A stretch of 30,085 nt of DNA from a virus, in the IMG/VR virus record IMGVR_UViG_3300031775_000025, positions 1-30,085 of that record. One strand, 5' to 3'. Below the pieces are notes generated by a model. That model did not search any database. It had not been told where the DNA came from and was given only the letters and a program-made list of their open reading frames with translations. The translations under genes were made by a program, and so were the position numbers. Within the stretch, counting starts at the first letter, position 1; each line of letters starts with the position of its first letter. This document shows positions 3,782 through 21,105 of the stretch, piece by piece.

Positions 3782-3796
3782 CTCTAATAGGGGACA
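3782..3796 (-). promoter_or_regulatory. Candidate T7-class promoter, copy 1
   Basis: Read on the minus strand this is TGTCCCCTATTAGAG, identical to the plus-strand copy at 8809-8823 and one base different from the minus-strand copy at 6870-6884. All copies point in the direction of the genes that follow. The CTATTAGAG part resembles the initiation region of T7/SP6 promoters (CTATAGGGAG, CTATAGAAG). It overlaps the end of thyX and lies 23 bp before the next late gene start (3759). Promoter function is inferred. Confidence 0.5.
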
Positions 3797-4407
3797 GGTC
3801 TCAAATACTTCCAAGAAATTGGAAATTTATATTCACAAGACTTATTAATCTTCATTACTATATCTCTTGTTTCTTCTTGAGCATCAGACTTTAAGCGTAA
3901 GCTACACACCCTAGAAAACGAATATAAGTTCCCTGACCAGTACCACTCAGTCATCATGTTCTGAGGTAATATCATTCTGGCCATCTCGGGAGCAATACCT
4001 TCATTTAAAAGGTTCTTATACGTTTGTTTTATATACTCTAACGTACCGGATATATCGTACTCTACAGTTTCTTTACTAGAGCCTTGCTTTATATTCTTAG
4101 CTCTCTTACGCCACACTCTTGGAATATAAAACTCAGGTTCATCATCTACATACCTTCTAGATACTTCGTTCCATACCAGGCCTACTTGGTGTTTAACTAG
4201 TTGCCTTGCAACAAAGATTGGAGCTTTTATTTTAAACTGTATAAAGGTATGAGCAAACGGACTCCAATGCTCGTGATCAGCTAGATACTTAATTAGTTTC
4301 TCATCACTCTCATCAAAGTCTGTTTTATATTTAGCAAAAGAAACTCTTGCTGCATTTACTACCGTTAAGTCCGTTCCGGCTACTTCCATTACTTGTACTG
4401 ATGTCAT
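3784..4407 (-). CDS. thyX: Flavin-dependent thymidylate synthase ThyX
   Basis: 207 residues. ThyX makes dTMP from dUMP with methylene-tetrahydrofolate, FAD and NADPH, releasing tetrahydrofolate, so no dihydrofolate reductase is needed. The ThyX signature region is visible as VKHQVGLVWNEVSRRY (family pattern RHRxxSxNExSxRY, here with Lys-His-Gln at the first three positions). Preceding HWSPFAHTFIQFKIKAPIFV and C-terminal RLKSDAQEETRDIV also fit the family. Its start overlaps the upstream gene stop (ATGA). It sits in the late, structural operon, while dCMP deaminase, which makes its substrate dUMP, is in the early block at 20665. Confidence 0.92.
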   Translation of the reverse strand: MTSVQVMEVAGTDLTVVNAARVSFAKYKTDFDESDEKLIKYLADHEHWSPFAHTFIQFKIKAPIFVARQLVKHQVGLVWNEVSRRYVDDEPEFYIPRVWRKRAKNIKQGSSKETVEYDISGTLEYIKQTYKNLLNEGIAPEMARMILPQNMMTEWYWSGNLYSFSRVCSLRLKSDAQEETRDIVMKINKSCEYKFPISWKYLRPVPY

Positions 4408-10128: not shown

Positions 10129-10574
10129 ATCGTAATTTAGTATATTTCCCAGCTGTCAGAATAGCCATGAAGAAAACTACTGACGAACTCGATCGTCTCA
10201 TGGAAGAAGCCAGTAAAGACAATAATGCAGCAGCTTTAGAAGCCTATCAAACCGCTTTTGCGCTGCTCAGAGAAGGTATCTTAAGAGTAGAAAACCAAGG
10301 CCATTCTAAATTTCATGTAGAAGTAGATGAAGCCTTAGAAGAAATCTTAAAGAGAGGAAGATCCAAGTATATTACTATGCATGCAAATAAAATGATGAGA
10401 CTTTGTAAAGACGCATTTGATGAAACTTGTATTAAACTTGCAACTGAAATAATAGAAATGCTTAAAGAAAAAGGGGTTTCTAAAGAAACTTTAAATGATA
10501 ACTATGTTGATATATATGAAGCAGCTTGTTATCAAGTTAAAGAAGTTTATAACGCAAAAGGAATAGATGTATGA
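10125..10574 (+). CDS. Hypothetical helical protein (149 aa)
   Basis: ATG at 10125 overlaps the previous stop; its own stop overlaps the next start (10571). The product is largely helical and charged (TTDELDRLMEEASKDNNAAA, EVDEALEEILKRGRS, LATEIIEMLKEKG). No domain recognised. Being in the middle of the early operon next to DUF3310, it may be a regulatory or nucleotide-metabolism accessory protein, but nothing proves it. Confidence 0.7.
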   Translation: MNRNLVYFPAVRIAMKKTTDELDRLMEEASKDNNAAALEAYQTAFALLREGILRVENQGHSKFHVEVDEALEEILKRGRSKYITMHANKMMRLCKDAFDETCIKLATEIIEMLKEKGVSKETLNDNYVDIYEAACYQVKEVYNAKGIDV

Positions 10575-10855
10575 AAATAGGTGATAAATTAGCAAAAGAC
10601 TTTATGACCATAGACGAGTTGCTTGTCAACAGTCCACCTCATTACAAGCAAGGAGACGTTGAGTGTATTGAGGCAATTAAGTCTGCCTGTGGTGCAGAGT
10701 ATCAAGGCTACCTACAAGGTAACATCATGAAATACATCTGGCGTTACCGTGCAAAAGGTCAATCAATAAATGATCTTAAGAAAGCTCAATGGTATCTGAA
10801 AGAACTTATCGTTGATGAACAAAACCGTTTAACGTTTGAAGAGGAAACTCCATGA
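10571..10855 (+). CDS. DUF3310 protein
   Basis: 94 residues. The segment HYKQGDVECIEAIKSACG, then YLQGNIMKYIWRYRAKG and DLKKAQWYLKELI, is the characteristic DUF3310 pattern (HY..G..ECI, G N..KYI.R...K....DL.KA..YL..L) found across phages, often near DNA metabolism genes. Its molecular role is not established to my knowledge. Start and stop overlap the neighbours by 4 nt each, so it is part of the translationally coupled early operon. Confidence 0.88.
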   Translation: MKIGDKLAKDFMTIDELLVNSPPHYKQGDVECIEAIKSACGAEYQGYLQGNIMKYIWRYRAKGQSINDLKKAQWYLKELIVDEQNRLTFEEETP

Positions 10856-12079: not shown

Positions 12080-12297
12080 GTCCAATAGAACCCATACATA
12101 CTCGTATTCAAGAAGTTGTTAGTAATCTATATGACGAAGAACATGATCCTTTTGCGATAGCGGGCGTAATGCTCGCTATTGCTATTCAATTATATCGTAC
12201 TCAAGAAATGAAATGGGATGGTATTAAAAAGTTATTAGATGAAATTCATAAGACTAGTATTAAATCAGAAGAACACATTAGGAGGACAATGCATTGA
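12073..12297 (+). CDS. Hypothetical helical protein (74 aa)
   Basis: ATG at 12073 (GGAG 11 nt upstream, a long gap). Helical with a hydrophobic middle (PFAIAGVMLAIAIQLYRTQE). Ends overlapping the TTG start of the DUF1599 gene. Function unknown. Confidence 0.6.
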   Translation: MLSPIEPIHTRIQEVVSNLYDEEHDPFAIAGVMLAIAIQLYRTQEMKWDGIKKLLDEIHKTSIKSEEHIRRTMH

Positions 12298-12629
12298 ATA
12301 AAGAAAGTTATTTACCAGATGCAATACAGATACTTGATCAATGTAAAACCTTAATGGAAAAGAAAGGTAAGGATTATCAAGGAGGATCTGTTTGTGATGA
12401 AGATTATTATCCTCATGGATGGAAATCGTTTGACACTATGTTAACAACTAAGGTGCTTAGGTTTAGATCTGTAATGGAACAAAAAGGCGATGTTAACTTC
12501 GACACAGCGGAAGATTGCCTTATAGACCTCATTAATTACTCTGCTAGAGCTATTGTATACATAAACCGACATAACCGACATAGCACAAAAGGGCCTGATG
12601 AATCAGACTTGCCGTATAATGGCGCATAA
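12294..12629 (+). CDS. DUF1599 (nucleotide modification associated domain 1) protein
   Basis: 111 residues from a TTG start at 12294 (AGGAGG eight nt upstream; stop of the previous gene overlaps). The pattern KKGKDYQGGS, HGWKSFDTMLTTKVLRFRSV and DTAEDCLIDLINYSARAIVY matches DUF1599, an all-helical family that comparative work has linked to modified-nucleotide pathways in phages (Nmad1). Its presence 170 nt before a dCMP hydroxymethylase gene strengthens that link here. The reaction is not known. Confidence 0.8.
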   Translation: MNKESYLPDAIQILDQCKTLMEKKGKDYQGGSVCDEDYYPHGWKSFDTMLTTKVLRFRSVMEQKGDVNFDTAEDCLIDLINYSARAIVYINRHNRHSTKGPDESDLPYNGA

Positions 12630-12819
12630 ATGGGTAGTAATGTTTGAACCCTTCGATGACGAAGGCTTTGAATACGTAAGAATAGGTAAAGTCTGGGATA
12701 TGAATACACCTATTAAAGTGTTTACTAACAGAGATGAAGCCGAAAAAGAAAAACGTAGATGGAATACCGGCGTTGTAACTGAATGGAGAAATGAAGATGT
12801 TAACTACGAGGAACATTAG
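12619..12819 (+). CDS. Hypothetical protein (66 aa)
   Basis: The product MAHKWVVMFEPFDDEGFEYV with VFTNRDEAEKEKRRWNT looks like a compact alpha/beta protein. The start at 12619 overlaps the previous gene by 11 nt; an alternative ATG lies at 12598. Neither has a strong RBS, so the start is uncertain. It overlaps the hydroxymethylase start by 23 nt. Function unknown. Confidence 0.6.
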   Translation: MAHKWVVMFEPFDDEGFEYVRIGKVWDMNTPIKVFTNRDEAEKEKRRWNTGVVTEWRNEDVNYEEH

Positions 12820-13525
12820 AGACAGATTTATTGATAAATTTAAAGATCAAGACTTTGAAGAAGATGGTAACATAGAAGTACTAGGCGCAAGTTTTATAGC
12901 TGATGAAGAAAGTATCTTTGGAACACCTAATGCAAAGTATCAGCAAGCTGAAGTTATTTGGTATAACAGCCAAAGTTGTAACACCGACAAGCTGAGAGAT
13001 ATTTATGGTAAAGTACCAGCCATTTGGGAACATGTTGCTAATACTAGAGGTAGTGTTAACTCGAATTACGGTCACTTAATCTTTTCAGCTCTAAACGGTA
13101 GCCAATATGAGAATGCTCATAGAGAATTAAAGAGAAACCCTGATTCTCGTAGAGCAACTATGATATATCAACACCCAGACATGCATCAGAGACACAGAGA
13201 GCATGGTAAGGATGACTTTGTGTGCACAAATGCTGTAACATACTATAATAAGTTAGGCATACTTCACGCTGTAGTACAGATGCGCTCGAATGATGTTGTA
13301 TTTGGGTACATTAATGACTATTATTGGCAATTTAAAGTATTAGAGCGGTTAGCTGGTGACTTAGAACTAGAAGTCGGAGGAATTTTATGGCAAGCTCAGA
13401 GTTTACATATGTATCCTCGTCATTTTAAGTTAATCGAAGACTATTTACATATTGAAGGGCTTCGTATAGAAAAGGCAAAGCCTGTAGACTATGCGGTAGA
13501 AGATATAGGAGCTCATAATGAATAA
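12797..13525 (+). CDS. Deoxycytidylate (dCMP) hydroxymethylase, T4 gp42-like
   Basis: 242 residues from the ATG at 12797 (GGAG 8 nt upstream; another ATG at 12791 is too close); T4 gp42 has 246. It transfers a one-carbon unit from methylene-tetrahydrofolate to dCMP, giving 5-hydroxymethyl-dCMP. As far as I remember gp42, long stretches match: IEVLGASFIADEESIFG, RGSVNSNYG, NPDSRRATMIY, DDFVCTNAVTYY and MRSNDVVFGYINDYYW. Cys143 corresponds to catalytic Cys148, and Asp174 to Asp179, which selects cytosine over uracil; thymidylate synthases have Asn there. So it is the hydroxymethylase, not ThyA. A thymidylate synthase (ThyX) is encoded separately. Confidence 0.92.
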   Translation: MLTTRNIRDRFIDKFKDQDFEEDGNIEVLGASFIADEESIFGTPNAKYQQAEVIWYNSQSCNTDKLRDIYGKVPAIWEHVANTRGSVNSNYGHLIFSALNGSQYENAHRELKRNPDSRRATMIYQHPDMHQRHREHGKDDFVCTNAVTYYNKLGILHAVVQMRSNDVVFGYINDYYWQFKVLERLAGDLELEVGGILWQAQSLHMYPRHFKLIEDYLHIEGLRIEKAKPVDYAVEDIGAHNE

Positions 13526-13589
13526 TCAACAAAATATGTTACTTACTTTAGGCTTAATAATAGCCTTAACATTAGCATTTGTACTATGA
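13518..13589 (+). CDS. Tiny membrane peptide (23 aa)
   Basis: ATG at 13518 overlaps the end of the hydroxymethylase gene by 8 nt; its TGA overlaps the next ATG (ATGA). Product MNNQQNMLLTLGLIIALTLA then FVL: polar start, one span. Likely translated by coupling; function unknown. Confidence 0.5.
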   Translation: MNNQQNMLLTLGLIIALTLAFVL

Positions 13590-13828
13590 AGATAACGCCT
13601 AAGTACGACAAATCATGGTACATTAAGTGGGTGTCGAGCTGTATACTACTAGTAGCTATGTCGCTTACTTCTATCGGTGGACTAGAACCATTTAATATAA
13701 TGCTTCACCTAATAGGAGTAACCGGCTGGCTAATAGTAGGAATGTTATGGCATGACCGAGCCTTAATATTTATTAATGGAATAGCAATCTTTATATTTCT
13801 ATCAGGAATTTTAAAGTTTTATTTATAG
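13586..13828 (+). CDS. Membrane protein (80 aa), three spans
   Basis: Begins MKITPKYDKSWYIKWVSSCI and has three hydrophobic stretches (CILLVAMSLTSIGG, IMLHLIGVTGWLIVGMLW, ALIFINGIAIFIFLSGIL). The motif KSWYIKWVSS ... GW.IVGMLWHDRAL recalls a small membrane family (perhaps DUF6552) seen in marine phages and bacteria; this assignment is from memory and tentative. Start coupled to the tiny peptide before it. Confidence 0.65.
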   Translation: MKITPKYDKSWYIKWVSSCILLVAMSLTSIGGLEPFNIMLHLIGVTGWLIVGMLWHDRALIFINGIAIFIFLSGILKFYL

Positions 13829-13836
13829 GAGATACA

Positions 13837-14052
13837 ATGCCTCATCACTTTCCAATTTGGATGAACACGAATAAAAAAGATATGGGATTTACCGACATGG
13901 CTGACATTGATTTGAATGTTGGTTTCAGTCGACATAACTCTCATCATATAGGTAACATAAGAGTTACGCAAGAAGTAATTGATAAAAACACTAGAAGATT
14001 TAGACTATACGTAGACGATAAACTAATGTCAACTAAACATATAGAAAGGTAG
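13837..14052 (+). CDS. Hypothetical protein (71 aa)
   Basis: ATG at 13837 after TAGGAGATACA. The product MPHHFPIWMNTNKKDMGFTD is His-rich in its middle (GFSRHNSHHIGNIRV) and ends basic. No domain recognised. Lies 3 nt before the methyltransferase gene. Confidence 0.6.
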   Translation: MPHHFPIWMNTNKKDMGFTDMADIDLNVGFSRHNSHHIGNIRVTQEVIDKNTRRFRLYVDDKLMSTKHIER

Positions 14053-14055
14053 AAC

Positions 14056-14904
14056 ATGGCAAACGCTAGAGGAAAAGAAATAGATAATACGCATTTAAGT
14101 ATAGATCAAGCAGAAGCTAGAGGTTTTATACATAGAGACTATATAGCTCACTGCTTACGATGGACTAAGATAGCTAAAGATCTAAACCTTGGTGGTAAGT
14201 ATAAAGAAGCCGACATAATAGATGTAGGTTGTGGTAAAGATATGCCGTTAGCTAGAATGCTAATGACAAATCGTATGGCACCAAGAAGATATTTAGGTGT
14301 TGAGTATAATAAGATGGAACTACCATCTATGTTTGATAATACAACCTTCAAACCTGAGTTAATGCAAGATGTAAACTTTGTAACAACCGACATTATGGAA
14401 GATAGCTTTAACGTTAGTGTTTGTCTTGAAGTGCTTGAGCACGTTGAACCATCAATGGCTATTATGATACTTGATCAAATAAGTAATGTCGTAGTACAAG
14501 ATGGTATATGTTACTTCTCAACACCGTGCTTTGATGAGAAAGTGGGAGCAGCTAAGAACCACGTAAATGAAATGACTTACCGAGCATTTGGTGCTTTATT
14601 AGAAGCAAGAGGCTTTCAAATACTAGATCATTATGGTACGTTTGCTTCACAAAAAGATTACAAACACCACCTTGATGGTGATATGAACTCTATATTCTCA
14701 AAGCTTAGTGAGTATTACGATACAAACTATCTTGCAACTATATTTGCACCGTTATATCCTAGTAAATCAAGAAACGTACTATGGAAATGTGCTAACCGAC
14801 AAAACAATGACTTCAATAGAAGGTTTACCGTAATTAACGAGATAGGTGGTAGGTTAGGATCTTCTGAAAAGGCAGGAGAATTACGTTTTGCCGCAGGATA
14901 CTGA
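14056..14904 (+). CDS. Class I SAM-dependent methyltransferase
   Basis: 282 residues. SAM-binding motif I is IIDVGCGKD (residues 54-62); a later acidic strand VTTDIMEDSFNVSVCLEVLE and HVEP give motif post-II and motif IV-like segments. The overall pattern (DVGCG, CLEVLEHV, CYFSTPC) is that of small-molecule or sugar methyltransferases rather than DNA methylases: there is no DPPY or PCQ motif. The substrate is unknown. Its place between the hydroxymethylase and the MazG-like gene makes a modified base, nucleotide or host metabolite possible, by context only. Confidence 0.8.
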   Translation: MANARGKEIDNTHLSIDQAEARGFIHRDYIAHCLRWTKIAKDLNLGGKYKEADIIDVGCGKDMPLARMLMTNRMAPRRYLGVEYNKMELPSMFDNTTFKPELMQDVNFVTTDIMEDSFNVSVCLEVLEHVEPSMAIMILDQISNVVVQDGICYFSTPCFDEKVGAAKNHVNEMTYRAFGALLEARGFQILDHYGTFASQKDYKHHLDGDMNSIFSKLSEYYDTNYLATIFAPLYPSKSRNVLWKCANRQNNDFNRRFTVINEIGGRLGSSEKAGELRFAAGY

Positions 14905-14956
14905 GCCCGAAAGATATTATGAATGGATGTTATGGAAATTAAAACAGGAGAAAGAT

Positions 14957-15424
14957 ATGAATGCTAAATGGTCTGAAATAGATAGTGATACTAACTGGGC
15001 TAAAGATATTAATAATATGCACCTCAAGTTTGGGGTGCATGACTGGGTTAAGACTAGAATAAAAGAAAAAGACTTCTATTCTTTGCACGAGTTCTTACAG
15101 TTTAGAATGAGATTTCTAGATGAAGAGCTACACGAAACCAAAGAAGCAATAAAACACCGACATGCAGACGATATTGTTGATGGCTTAATAGACCTATGTG
15201 TTGTTGCTATTGGCACGTTAGATATGATGGGTGTAGATGCTAATAGATCATGGAACCGAGTCCACCGTGCTAATATGGCTAAACATATAGGCCAAAAGGA
15301 TTCCAGACCTAATGATCTTGGGCTGCCTGATTTAGTAAAGCCTGATGATTGGATGGCACCTGATCATACAGATAACATCGGAATTACAGAAAAGTTTTTG
15401 AGAAAAGACTATGAACCGAAGTAA
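14957..15424 (+). CDS. MazG-like nucleotide pyrophosphohydrolase
   Basis: 155 residues from the ATG at 14957, which has AGGAG six nt upstream; the frame continues upstream to a TTG at 14888. The all-alpha NTP-pyrophosphatase signature is visible: EELHE at residues 56-60 and DDIVDGLIDL at 71-80, whose acidic residues bind Mg. Such enzymes cleave (d)NTPs to monophosphates. Next to a dCMP hydroxymethylase it could supply dCMP from dCTP and keep unmodified dCTP out of DNA, the role that gp56 plays in T4. Substrate choice is inference. A short inverted repeat at 15017-15040 lies inside the gene. Confidence 0.78.
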   Translation: MNAKWSEIDSDTNWAKDINNMHLKFGVHDWVKTRIKEKDFYSLHEFLQFRMRFLDEELHETKEAIKHRHADDIVDGLIDLCVVAIGTLDMMGVDANRSWNRVHRANMAKHIGQKDSRPNDLGLPDLVKPDDWMAPDHTDNIGITEKFLRKDYEPK

Positions 15425-19090: not shown

Positions 19091-20678
19091 TAGATATGAA
19101 TGCCCGGATTGTGGTAGCTCAGATGGATTAATGCATGATCCAAGTGATGATCATACATATTGTTTTGCATGTAAAAAGTATAAAGAAAAAGTAGAAGGAG
19201 TAACGAGTAATGACAAACCCAATGCCGATACAATTAATAACGGACAACCTGATATCGCCGATATTCATAACTATCCTAGTCTTGGTATTACTAGTCGCAA
19301 TATTTCAGCGAATGTAACTAGTTGGTTCGGTGTAAAGACTCACCAATATAATAATAAACCAGCACACTTTTATCCTTATGGAGATGATTGTTATAAAATA
19401 AGAATCTTACCTAAGGACTTTAGACTATTAGGTAAACCAAGAAAATTATTTGGTCAAGATAAGTTTAACAATGGTAAGATGCTTGTAATAACTGAAGGCG
19501 AGCTTGATGCGTTAGCTGTAGCTCAGGCGATGATTGATACTAAGAATACTATATACCCTGTAGTATCTATTCCTTCTGCTAATCAATTAAGTTTACTGTT
19601 AGAAAATAGAGATTGGCTTCGAAGATTCGATGAAGTAATTCTATGGTTTGATAATGATGAAGCCGGTCAAGCAGCTATAAAACAAGCAGCTAAAATAATT
19701 GGTTTCGATAAAGTAAAAGTTATAGAAACAGAAGATAAAGATGCTTGTGATTTATACACAACTAAAGGATCTAAAGGAGTAACCAATGCTATATGGGGTG
19801 CTCATAAGTATAACCCAGCTGGTATTCTAACTGGTGAAAAAGTATGGGATAAGTTTATGGAGAGACAGACAACTCAGTCTATCCCTTATCCTGATTGTCT
19901 AACCGGTCTCAATGATAAACTGAAAGGTATGAGACATGGAGAGATAACCTTGTTTACTAGTGGTACAGGTTCAGGTAAATCTACCGTAATTAAAGAGATT
20001 ATATGGCACTTACTTTCTACTACTAAAGAAAGAACCGGCCTCATATCTCTTGAAGAAAGTGTAGGTGATACTGCTGAGAAACTTATTGGTATGAGTATTA
20101 ATAAGAGAATTGGTGGAGATCTTATTGTATCTAAAACCGAAATGAGAGAAGGCTTTGATAAAGTATTTAAGGACGAACGCCTTGTCTTATTAGACCACCA
20201 AGGCTCTGTTGAAGATAGTTCTTTAATAGATAAGATAGAGTACATGGCTCTTATGGGATGCAAGTATCTATTCTTAGATCATATAACTATTGCTGTGTCT
20301 GAAGGTAACGATGGCCTAACAGGTAATGCAGCAGTCGATAAGGTTATGTCTGATCTACTTAAGATAGTTAAGAAGCATAACATCTGGCTAGGTATTGTAA
20401 GTCACTTACGTAAAGCAGGAGATGGTAAAGCATTTGAAGAAGGCAACATGGCTTCCATTGATGATATCAAAGGTAGTGGTAGTATCAAACAAATATCATT
20501 TGATATTATAGCTTTCTCAAGGAATCTTGTAGCTGAAACTATTAATGAACGTAATAAGATTTCTTTTACTGTGCTTAAATCTAGATTCACAGGTTTAACT
20601 GGACCAGCCGGAGTTAGTATATATGATACTAATACTGGTAGATTAGAGAAAGGAGAGTCAGGCTTTGACATTATCTAA
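19065..20678 (+). CDS. Bifunctional primase-helicase (T7 gp4-like)
   Basis: 537 residues (T7 gp4 has 566). Zinc finger with Cys13, Cys16, Cys33 and Cys36 (CPDCGSSDGL ... YCFAC); TOPRIM primase motifs VITEGELDALA and VILWFDNDEAG; hexameric helicase Walker A GTGSGKST at 300-307, then a Walker B-like segment YLFLDHITIA and SHLRKAGDG. It unwinds the fork and makes primers for the polymerase at 15669. ATG after GGAGATAA, inside the end of rusA. The stop overlaps the dCMP deaminase start. Confidence 0.95.
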   Translation: MLKKLIDNSRYECPDCGSSDGLMHDPSDDHTYCFACKKYKEKVEGVTSNDKPNADTINNGQPDIADIHNYPSLGITSRNISANVTSWFGVKTHQYNNKPAHFYPYGDDCYKIRILPKDFRLLGKPRKLFGQDKFNNGKMLVITEGELDALAVAQAMIDTKNTIYPVVSIPSANQLSLLLENRDWLRRFDEVILWFDNDEAGQAAIKQAAKIIGFDKVKVIETEDKDACDLYTTKGSKGVTNAIWGAHKYNPAGILTGEKVWDKFMERQTTQSIPYPDCLTGLNDKLKGMRHGEITLFTSGTGSGKSTVIKEIIWHLLSTTKERTGLISLEESVGDTAEKLIGMSINKRIGGDLIVSKTEMREGFDKVFKDERLVLLDHQGSVEDSSLIDKIEYMALMGCKYLFLDHITIAVSEGNDGLTGNAAVDKVMSDLLKIVKKHNIWLGIVSHLRKAGDGKAFEEGNMASIDDIKGSGSIKQISFDIIAFSRNLVAETINERNKISFTVLKSRFTGLTGPAGVSIYDTNTGRLEKGESGFDII

Positions 20679-21105
20679 GAACGATAAAATGTATCTTGAG
20701 ATAGCTCAGATAATATCTGAAAGATCTAGAGATAAACTATATAAAGTTGGCGCGCTAATAGCTAAGGGTAATAATATCCTTAGCTACGGCTGGAATGGTA
20801 CGCCTCATGGTATGGATAACGAAACCCGTAACCACGATGCTACCACTAAATGGGAGTTAGTTCATGCTGAAACAAACGCAATAGCTAAATTAGCTGCCTC
20901 AACTTCTTCTTCTCTTGGTGCAACGCTATACTTAACACATTCACCTTGTAAAGATTGCACTAAACTTATACTACAATCTGGAATAAAGAGATTAGTATAC
21001 AAAAAGCTATATGAATCTTGGATCAATGGTGAAAGAATACCACAGATTGATGCATTACATTTACTACAAGATAATGGAGTGGAAGTTGCGCAATATAGAG
21101 ATTAG
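20665..21105 (+). CDS. dCMP deaminase
   Basis: 146 residues from a TTG start at 20665 (AGGAGAG upstream). Zinc and proton-transfer signature: HAE at 67-69 and PCKDC at 94-98. It converts dCMP to dUMP, the substrate for ThyX (3784-4407). It therefore competes with the hydroxymethylase at 12797 for dCMP. T4 has the same enzyme pair. Overlaps the helicase end by 14 nt. Within the gene GCTAAGG/CCTTAGC can pair, probably by chance. Confidence 0.93.
   Translation: MTLSKNDKMYLEIAQIISERSRDKLYKVGALIAKGNNILSYGWNGTPHGMDNETRNHDATTKWELVHAETNAIAKLAASTSSSLGATLYLTHSPCKDCTKLILQSGIKRLVYKKLYESWINGERIPQIDALHLLQDNGVEVAQYRD

Follow-up and report, generated by a model that had tools for sequence, protein, structure and literature searches.

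The DNA analysed here (the window) is a 30,085-base IMG/VR virus record, IMGVR_UViG_3300031775_000025, which covers part of the genome of a small tailed phage. Its source is a marine bacterial virus whose backbone includes a T7-like RNA polymerase, PolA and a primase-helicase, with a portal and large terminase that were assigned by eye from sequence; among named phages, the backbone is closest to those of Roseobacter phage CRP-7 (~36% for the RNA polymerase and Pol) and Pelagibacter phage Kolga (Pol, 37%). Four genes read in the same direction encode a DUF1599-like protein, a deoxycytidine monophosphate (dCMP) hydroxymethylase, a class I S-adenosylmethionine (SAM) methyltransferase and a MazG-like nucleoside triphosphate (NTP) pyrophosphohydrolase (Table 1). 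A sequence-only reading had proposed them as a cytosine hypermodification cassette, and all four were recovered at their predicted positions, in a single orientation and each with domain or homology matches. The MazG and methyltransferase genes overlap by 17 bp, the DUF1599-like gene overlaps its upstream gene by 4 bp, and all four are under purifying selection (nonsynonymous divergence, dN, 0.04–0.32 at synonymous divergence, dS, of 0.25–1.8 or saturated).

The hydroxymethylase has a thymidylate-synthase (TS) fold, and its best PDB matches are the T4 gp42 structures 1b49 and 6l18. It also matches PHROG 160 (E = 7e-42) and is up to 48% identical to proteins of T-even-like phages across ~90% of its length. 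The catalytic cysteine (T4 Cys148) lies in the motif DFVCTN, while the position of Asn177 in TS is taken by a dCMP-specifying aspartate (T4 Asp179) in the motif GYINDYYW. These are the residues Cys143 and Asp174 on which the sequence-only reading had relied, numbered from the ATG start codon at 12797; in the alignment with T4 gp42 each falls on its counterpart. When relatives were checked for loss of the catalytic residues, both were found to be kept in all of them, and the pair is present in 68/68 hydroxymethylases encoded near this methyltransferase, which fall into three lineages (gp42-like, AXL3-like and a GLGND type). In an experimental metagenome, Asp versus Asn at the specificity position marks modified-cytosine versus unmodified contigs, and genes for TS-fold, PF01503 and dCMP-deaminase proteins co-occur on the modified-cytosine contigs (PMC8670742). 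A true TS was rejected because of the Asp at this position and the presence of the flavin-dependent enzyme ThyX in the window, with which the TS-fold gene need not make dTMP. The homologue in Pseudoxanthomonas phage PW916 (L012:3280-4098, OL960029.1) is labelled a deoxyuridylate hydroxymethyltransferase, yet its specificity residue is Asp, pointing to dCMP. Because sequence homology, the diagnostic residues, the conservation of the gene neighbourhood and experimental correlates from other studies (PMC8670742; phage AXL3, PMC7504290) agree, the prediction that the window phage hydroxymethylates cytosine, to give 5-hydroxymethylcytosine (hmC), is well supported.

The MazG-like protein has DR2231 as its nearest solved relative by both sequence (profile E = 1e-17) and structure (Z = 10.0, 2.2 Å over 112 residues), and DR2231 has been crystallised with dUMP and dUMPNPP. 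The EExxE motif is kept (E79, E80 and E83, window numbering), as is D102, and the second acidic pair reads DxxxD as against ExxD in DR2231. Its kinship with DR2231 makes the enzyme a plausible stand-in, as the sequence-only reading had suggested, for the T4 deoxycytidine triphosphatase (dCTPase), and so a possible functional analogue of gp56.

The methyltransferase family is nearly confined to phages. A profile search of IMG/VR returned 308 relatives, whereas 84,980 prokaryotic genomes yielded just five matches, all on short contigs of metagenome-assembled genomes (MAGs), and the whole cassette is present in all three of these whose neighbourhood is covered. Only five of 50,697 phage records contain a relative, and these represent four phages: podovirus ct3Et533, siphovirus ctUtU524, Stenotrophomonas phage AXL3 and PW916. 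In each of the four, the methyltransferase adjoins a MazG-type gene, followed by a kinase-like gene or unannotated open reading frame (ORF), a cytosine-type hydroxymethylase and a dCMP deaminase. Linkage was counted over the 54 viral methyltransferase loci with full flanks. A MazG gene lies beside the methyltransferase in all 54, a hydroxymethylase no more than 4 kb away in 53, a dCMP deaminase within 8 kb in 50, and a P-loop kinase-like gene, between MazG and the hydroxymethylase, in 40. Seen from the hydroxymethylase, 43/53 full-flank loci of the AXL3 type carry the methyltransferase. At one locus (L002:9721-10985) the methyltransferase is broken into two reading frames, by either a frameshift or an assembly error.

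A tree of 122 methyltransferases resolves two deep subfamilies that have the same neighbours. The window clade, in which the hydroxymethylase is of the gp42 type (support 100/100), is nested among loci with AXL3-type hydroxymethylases, from which it follows that the hydroxymethylase was replaced and the methyltransferase retained. Two tree labels, L060 and L063, were marked gp42 by the better-scoring profile and actually carry a GLGND-type hydroxymethylase. A close relative with the same polymerases (Pol and RNA polymerase) and gene order, L107, has DUF1599, hydroxymethylase, DUF6552 and MazG genes and no methyltransferase, which makes the methyltransferase an add-on to an hmC core. Set against the window, this locus (L107:5320-6796) forms a clean presence/absence pair, the methyltransferase being missing between DUF6552 and MazG. 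There are further gp42-type loci that lack the methyltransferase, some of them near sugar-related genes including an inositol-phosphate synthase. In phage T2 a beta-glucosyltransferase abuts gp42, and on one viral contig a match to the T4 DNA alpha-glucosyltransferase (PF11440; L114:7917-9266) lies near a gp42-type hydroxymethylase, so that the methyltransferase appears to occupy a decorator slot. By this analogy, it is a candidate for a conserved decorator, holding the position that a glucosyltransferase has in T-even phages. The sequence-only reading's proposal of cytosine hypermodification thus held for hmC synthesis, while its treatment of the methyltransferase as just another part did not: the decorator it left open is probably a gene already on its own list.

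What reaction such a decorator might perform is suggested by its fold and motifs. The predicted structure (predicted local distance difference test score, pLDDT, 88) is a class I fold with CLEVLEH at motif IV. In the alignment this position has neither the (D/N/S)PP(Y/F/W) motif of N4/N6 amino-methyltransferases nor the PC (SPPC) cysteine motif of C5-cytosine methyltransferases and CmoX; an STPC sequence is found instead at strand 5, where several members have Val in place of the Cys. The invariant elements of both subfamilies are E(V)xEH and a downstream NHxxE. The former aligns with the O-methyltransferases UbiG and bacterial Hen1 (EVIEHL), while the likeness of NHxxE to the DHRFEW of Hen1 was matched by eye at a place where the alignment program put a gap. 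In Hen1, ExxEH and a later His bind a metal that activates a hydroxyl. The protein is not itself a member of the Hen1 family (NCBIfam TIGR04074, 13.4 bits against a cut-off of 340). Its best structural neighbour is CmoM (Z = 18.9/18.2; next, 16.7), the tRNA cmo5U34 methyltransferase, an enzyme that adds a methyl group to an oxygen in the C5 substituent of a uridine in tRNA. The motifs and the CmoM-like fold are best regarded as leads towards O-methylation of the hydroxymethyl group.

Phage AXL3 connects the cassette to an experimental observation, since its DNA resists 35/37 restriction enzymes and is cut only by the two with A/T-only sites, AATT and TTAA (PMC7504290). Such a pattern means that AXL3 DNA contains an altered G or C, and the phage carries the same five-gene set. 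AXL3 and PW916 resemble the window in having methyltransferase, MazG, (kinase), hydroxymethylase and dCMP deaminase genes in a row, and differ from it in their hydroxymethylase lineage, in a methyltransferase that is only ~29% identical and in their phage backbone.

Parallels can also be drawn with established systems. The hmC pathway of T4 and T2 shares with the window a gp42-type hydroxymethylase and a pyrophosphohydrolase potentially able to clear deoxycytidine triphosphate (dCTP), and the T2 gene beside gp42 is a decorator, as by inference is its counterpart here. The T-even phages employ gp56, gp1 and alpha/beta-glucosyltransferases, whereas the window has the MazG-like enzyme, no gp1 that was found, and the methyltransferase, and unlike them it belongs to a small phage with a T7-like RNA polymerase and PolA. 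The MetaGPA contigs carrying 5-carbamoyloxymethylcytosine have the same Asp-type TS-fold enzyme, PF01503 protein and dCMP deaminase, with a carbamoyltransferase (PMC8670742) in place of a methyltransferase. The window resembles the CmoX 5-carboxymethylcytosine system (PMC12783734) in its predicted phage cytosine hypermodification by a SAM-type transferase with links to the chemistry of tRNA modification. CmoX is of the C5-cytosine-methyltransferase type, has an SPPC motif and acts on DNA (PMC12783734), whereas the window methyltransferase lacks SPPC at that place and hydroxymethylation would occur at the nucleotide level. CmoM offers the closest fold and a precedent for oxygen methylation on a pyrimidine C5 substituent, but at ~12–13% identity and with a different substrate it provides a lead rather than membership.

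We hold with moderate confidence that the cassette directs a cytosine hypermodification in which hmC is made, incorporated and methyl-capped by the methyltransferase, the hydroxyl oxygen being the likeliest acceptor. The MazG-like enzyme would hydrolyse dCTP, and probably dUTP too, to the monophosphate, and the gp42-type enzyme would turn dCMP into 5-hydroxymethyl-dCMP. Conversion of the latter to the triphosphate would fall to a kinase of the host or to an unrecognised one of the phage, and the phage polymerase would incorporate the product in place of dC, presumably throughout the genome, while dCMP deaminase and ThyX would maintain the dTTP supply. The methyltransferase, acting on the nucleotide or on DNA, would then methylate the hydroxymethylated cytosine, most likely at the hydroxyl oxygen to give 5-methoxymethylcytosine. 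Methyl decoration of hmC by this enzyme is, on comparative grounds, probable. The broader idea, that a phage-specific O-methyltransferase family caps hmC as 5-methoxymethylcytosine in a widespread phage group, is more tentative, and we put its chances somewhat short of even. In the literature covered by our search, which most subscription papers lay outside, neither 5-methoxymethylcytosine as a DNA base nor this cassette was found described.

Several observations weigh against this interpretation. The window is a fragment, and the methyltransferase loci are non-independent samples. The MazG protein has Gly/Ala at the position of DR2231 Glu79, the residue just before it being an invariant Asp (D98), and homology to T-even gp56 was rejected after a profile of five sequences gave no significant match to T2 gp56. 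CmoM leads the next structural neighbours by only ~2 Z, and a methyltransferase fold in common shows no function. The methyltransferase is acidic (isoelectric point, pI, 5.9) with no obvious means of DNA binding, such that a nucleotide or a DNA substrate would be possible. The resistance of AXL3 reveals an altered G or C rather than the base itself, and its methyltransferase lies in the other deep subfamily, 29% identical to that of the window. Finally, a kinase-like gene accompanies most methyltransferase loci, yet none of a known family was found in the window clade, whose records may be fragments: DNMK (PF21448), Cytidylate_kin (PF02224) and Thymidylate_kin (PF02223) gave no match there, including in a 56-kb relative. 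If the pathway works, the phosphate groups must be added by a kinase of the host, by the DUF3310 protein or by some gene product that escaped recognition.

Some of these points favour other explanations. The methyl group might be placed on another atom, such as N4 of hmC, or on a group added first, yielding a hypermodified cytosine other than methoxymethylcytosine; the target of the P-loop kinase-like gene product of 40/54 loci could be the hydroxymethyl group and not the nucleotide, but the window clade lacks this gene and the alignment contains no DPPY-type motif, and we regard this possibility as rather unlikely. It is unlikely, too, that hmC is left bare or is sugar-decorated by an unseen enzyme while the methyltransferase acts during infection on another target, such as tRNA, the mRNA cap or a small molecule. 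The tRNA and RNA methyltransferases among its nearest families would suit such a role, L107 has the hmC core on its own, and the window is only a fragment. Against this, the methyltransferase almost always accompanies a cytosine-type hydroxymethylase (53/54), even when the hydroxymethylase lineage changes, and neither Glycos_transf_1 nor carbamoyltransferase was matched in 14 related records. Ordinary DNA bases, with a TS-like or dUMP-type enzyme engaged in nucleotide supply, would be very improbable: phage thymidylate synthases are common and the PW916 homologue bears its GenBank label, but every member has Asp rather than Asn at the specificity position, ThyX is already encoded in the window, and the Asp type tracks modified cytosine (PMC8670742).

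The methyl-capping interpretation names the gene most likely to lie behind an unexplained step in a large group of modified-cytosine phages, and offers a probable chemistry for it. The gene set is shared by AXL3, which has been isolated and whose G/C-modified genome is unexplained. If correct, capping hmC with a methyl group would give phages a small, cheap substitute for glucosylation in evading restriction and defences that target hmC.

Table 1. Features of the window related to the proposed cytosine modification and nucleotide supply.
Feature	Coordinates	Strand	Evidence
ThyX flavin thymidylate synthase	3784..4407	-	PF02511 1.6e-46
DUF3310 protein, 'nucleotide kinase' in PHROGs; weak kinase candidate	10571..10855	+	PF11753 4e-20; PHROG 236 3e-24
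DUF1599/Nmad1-like, 111 aa, TTG start	12294..12629	+	PHROGs 4e-11; PF07659 E 1e-3, below cut-off (19.9 vs 25 bits)
dCMP 5-hydroxymethylase, T4 gp42 type	12791..13525	+	phmmer 1.4e-53 to 1b49; Cys143, Asp174 from ATG 12797
Small membrane protein DUF6552, weakly MtN3/SWEET-like	13586..13828	+	PF20189 4e-21
Class I SAM methyltransferase, candidate hmC decorator	14056..14904	+	Methyltransf_23 E 1.5e-8; E125xxE128H129, N168H169xxE172 invariant
MazG-like NTP pyrophosphohydrolase, DR2231 type; candidate dCTP/dUTP-ase	14888..15424	+	PF01503 E 6e-10; EExxE...DxxxD
dCMP deaminase (pyrimidine supply)	20665..21105	+	PF00383 1e-21

The dCMP deaminase and ThyX, absent from the gene list of the sequence-only reading, are part of the same nucleotide economy. 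That reading had seen neither a gp1-like kinase nor a glucosyltransferase in the window, and domain scans likewise found no gp1-like kinase or glycosyltransferase there. It had also called for a wider search for kinases and sugar transferases, which we extended to related records, possibly fragments, again finding neither the known kinase families nor Glycos_transf_1. The gp1-type kinase family PF21448 had no match in the window and seven related records, which may be fragments; Glycos_transf_1 (PF00534) had none in 14 related records, in a scan that the AGT/BGT families lay outside; and Carbam_trans_N (PF02543) was found beside the hydroxymethylase in 0/14, again possibly fragments. The DUF3310 protein covers only one domain of longer PHROG families, and the same domain occurs in many PHROGs.

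DUF1599 genes adjoin gp42-type hydroxymethylases in most full-flank relatives and likewise lie beside the hydroxymethylase of phage Kolga. As a MazG homologue, the DUF1599-like protein was rejected on a weak match (E = 0.07), though PHROG 18404 unites both. A DUF6552 gene again follows gp42-type hydroxymethylases directly at other loci (L107:6041-6289; L133:6692-7024), distant phages included; L133 is a gp42-type locus that lacks the methyltransferase. Other genes accompany hydroxymethylases at loci of this kind: a C5-cytosine methylase-family gene (L112:9154-10395; 13 loci) lies ~5 kb from gp42-type enzymes, and a weak GDSL-lipase match (L215:2531-3640 and 20 other loci) lies ~4 kb from both hydroxymethylase types, the latter group being a single-linkage cluster that may be over-merged. 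Unlike the window, the 56-kb relative (G001) has no ThyX in its ORF list; it encodes a class II-like ribonucleotide reductase (L091:2921-4657) and an Hsp20 protein (L093:5793-6251).

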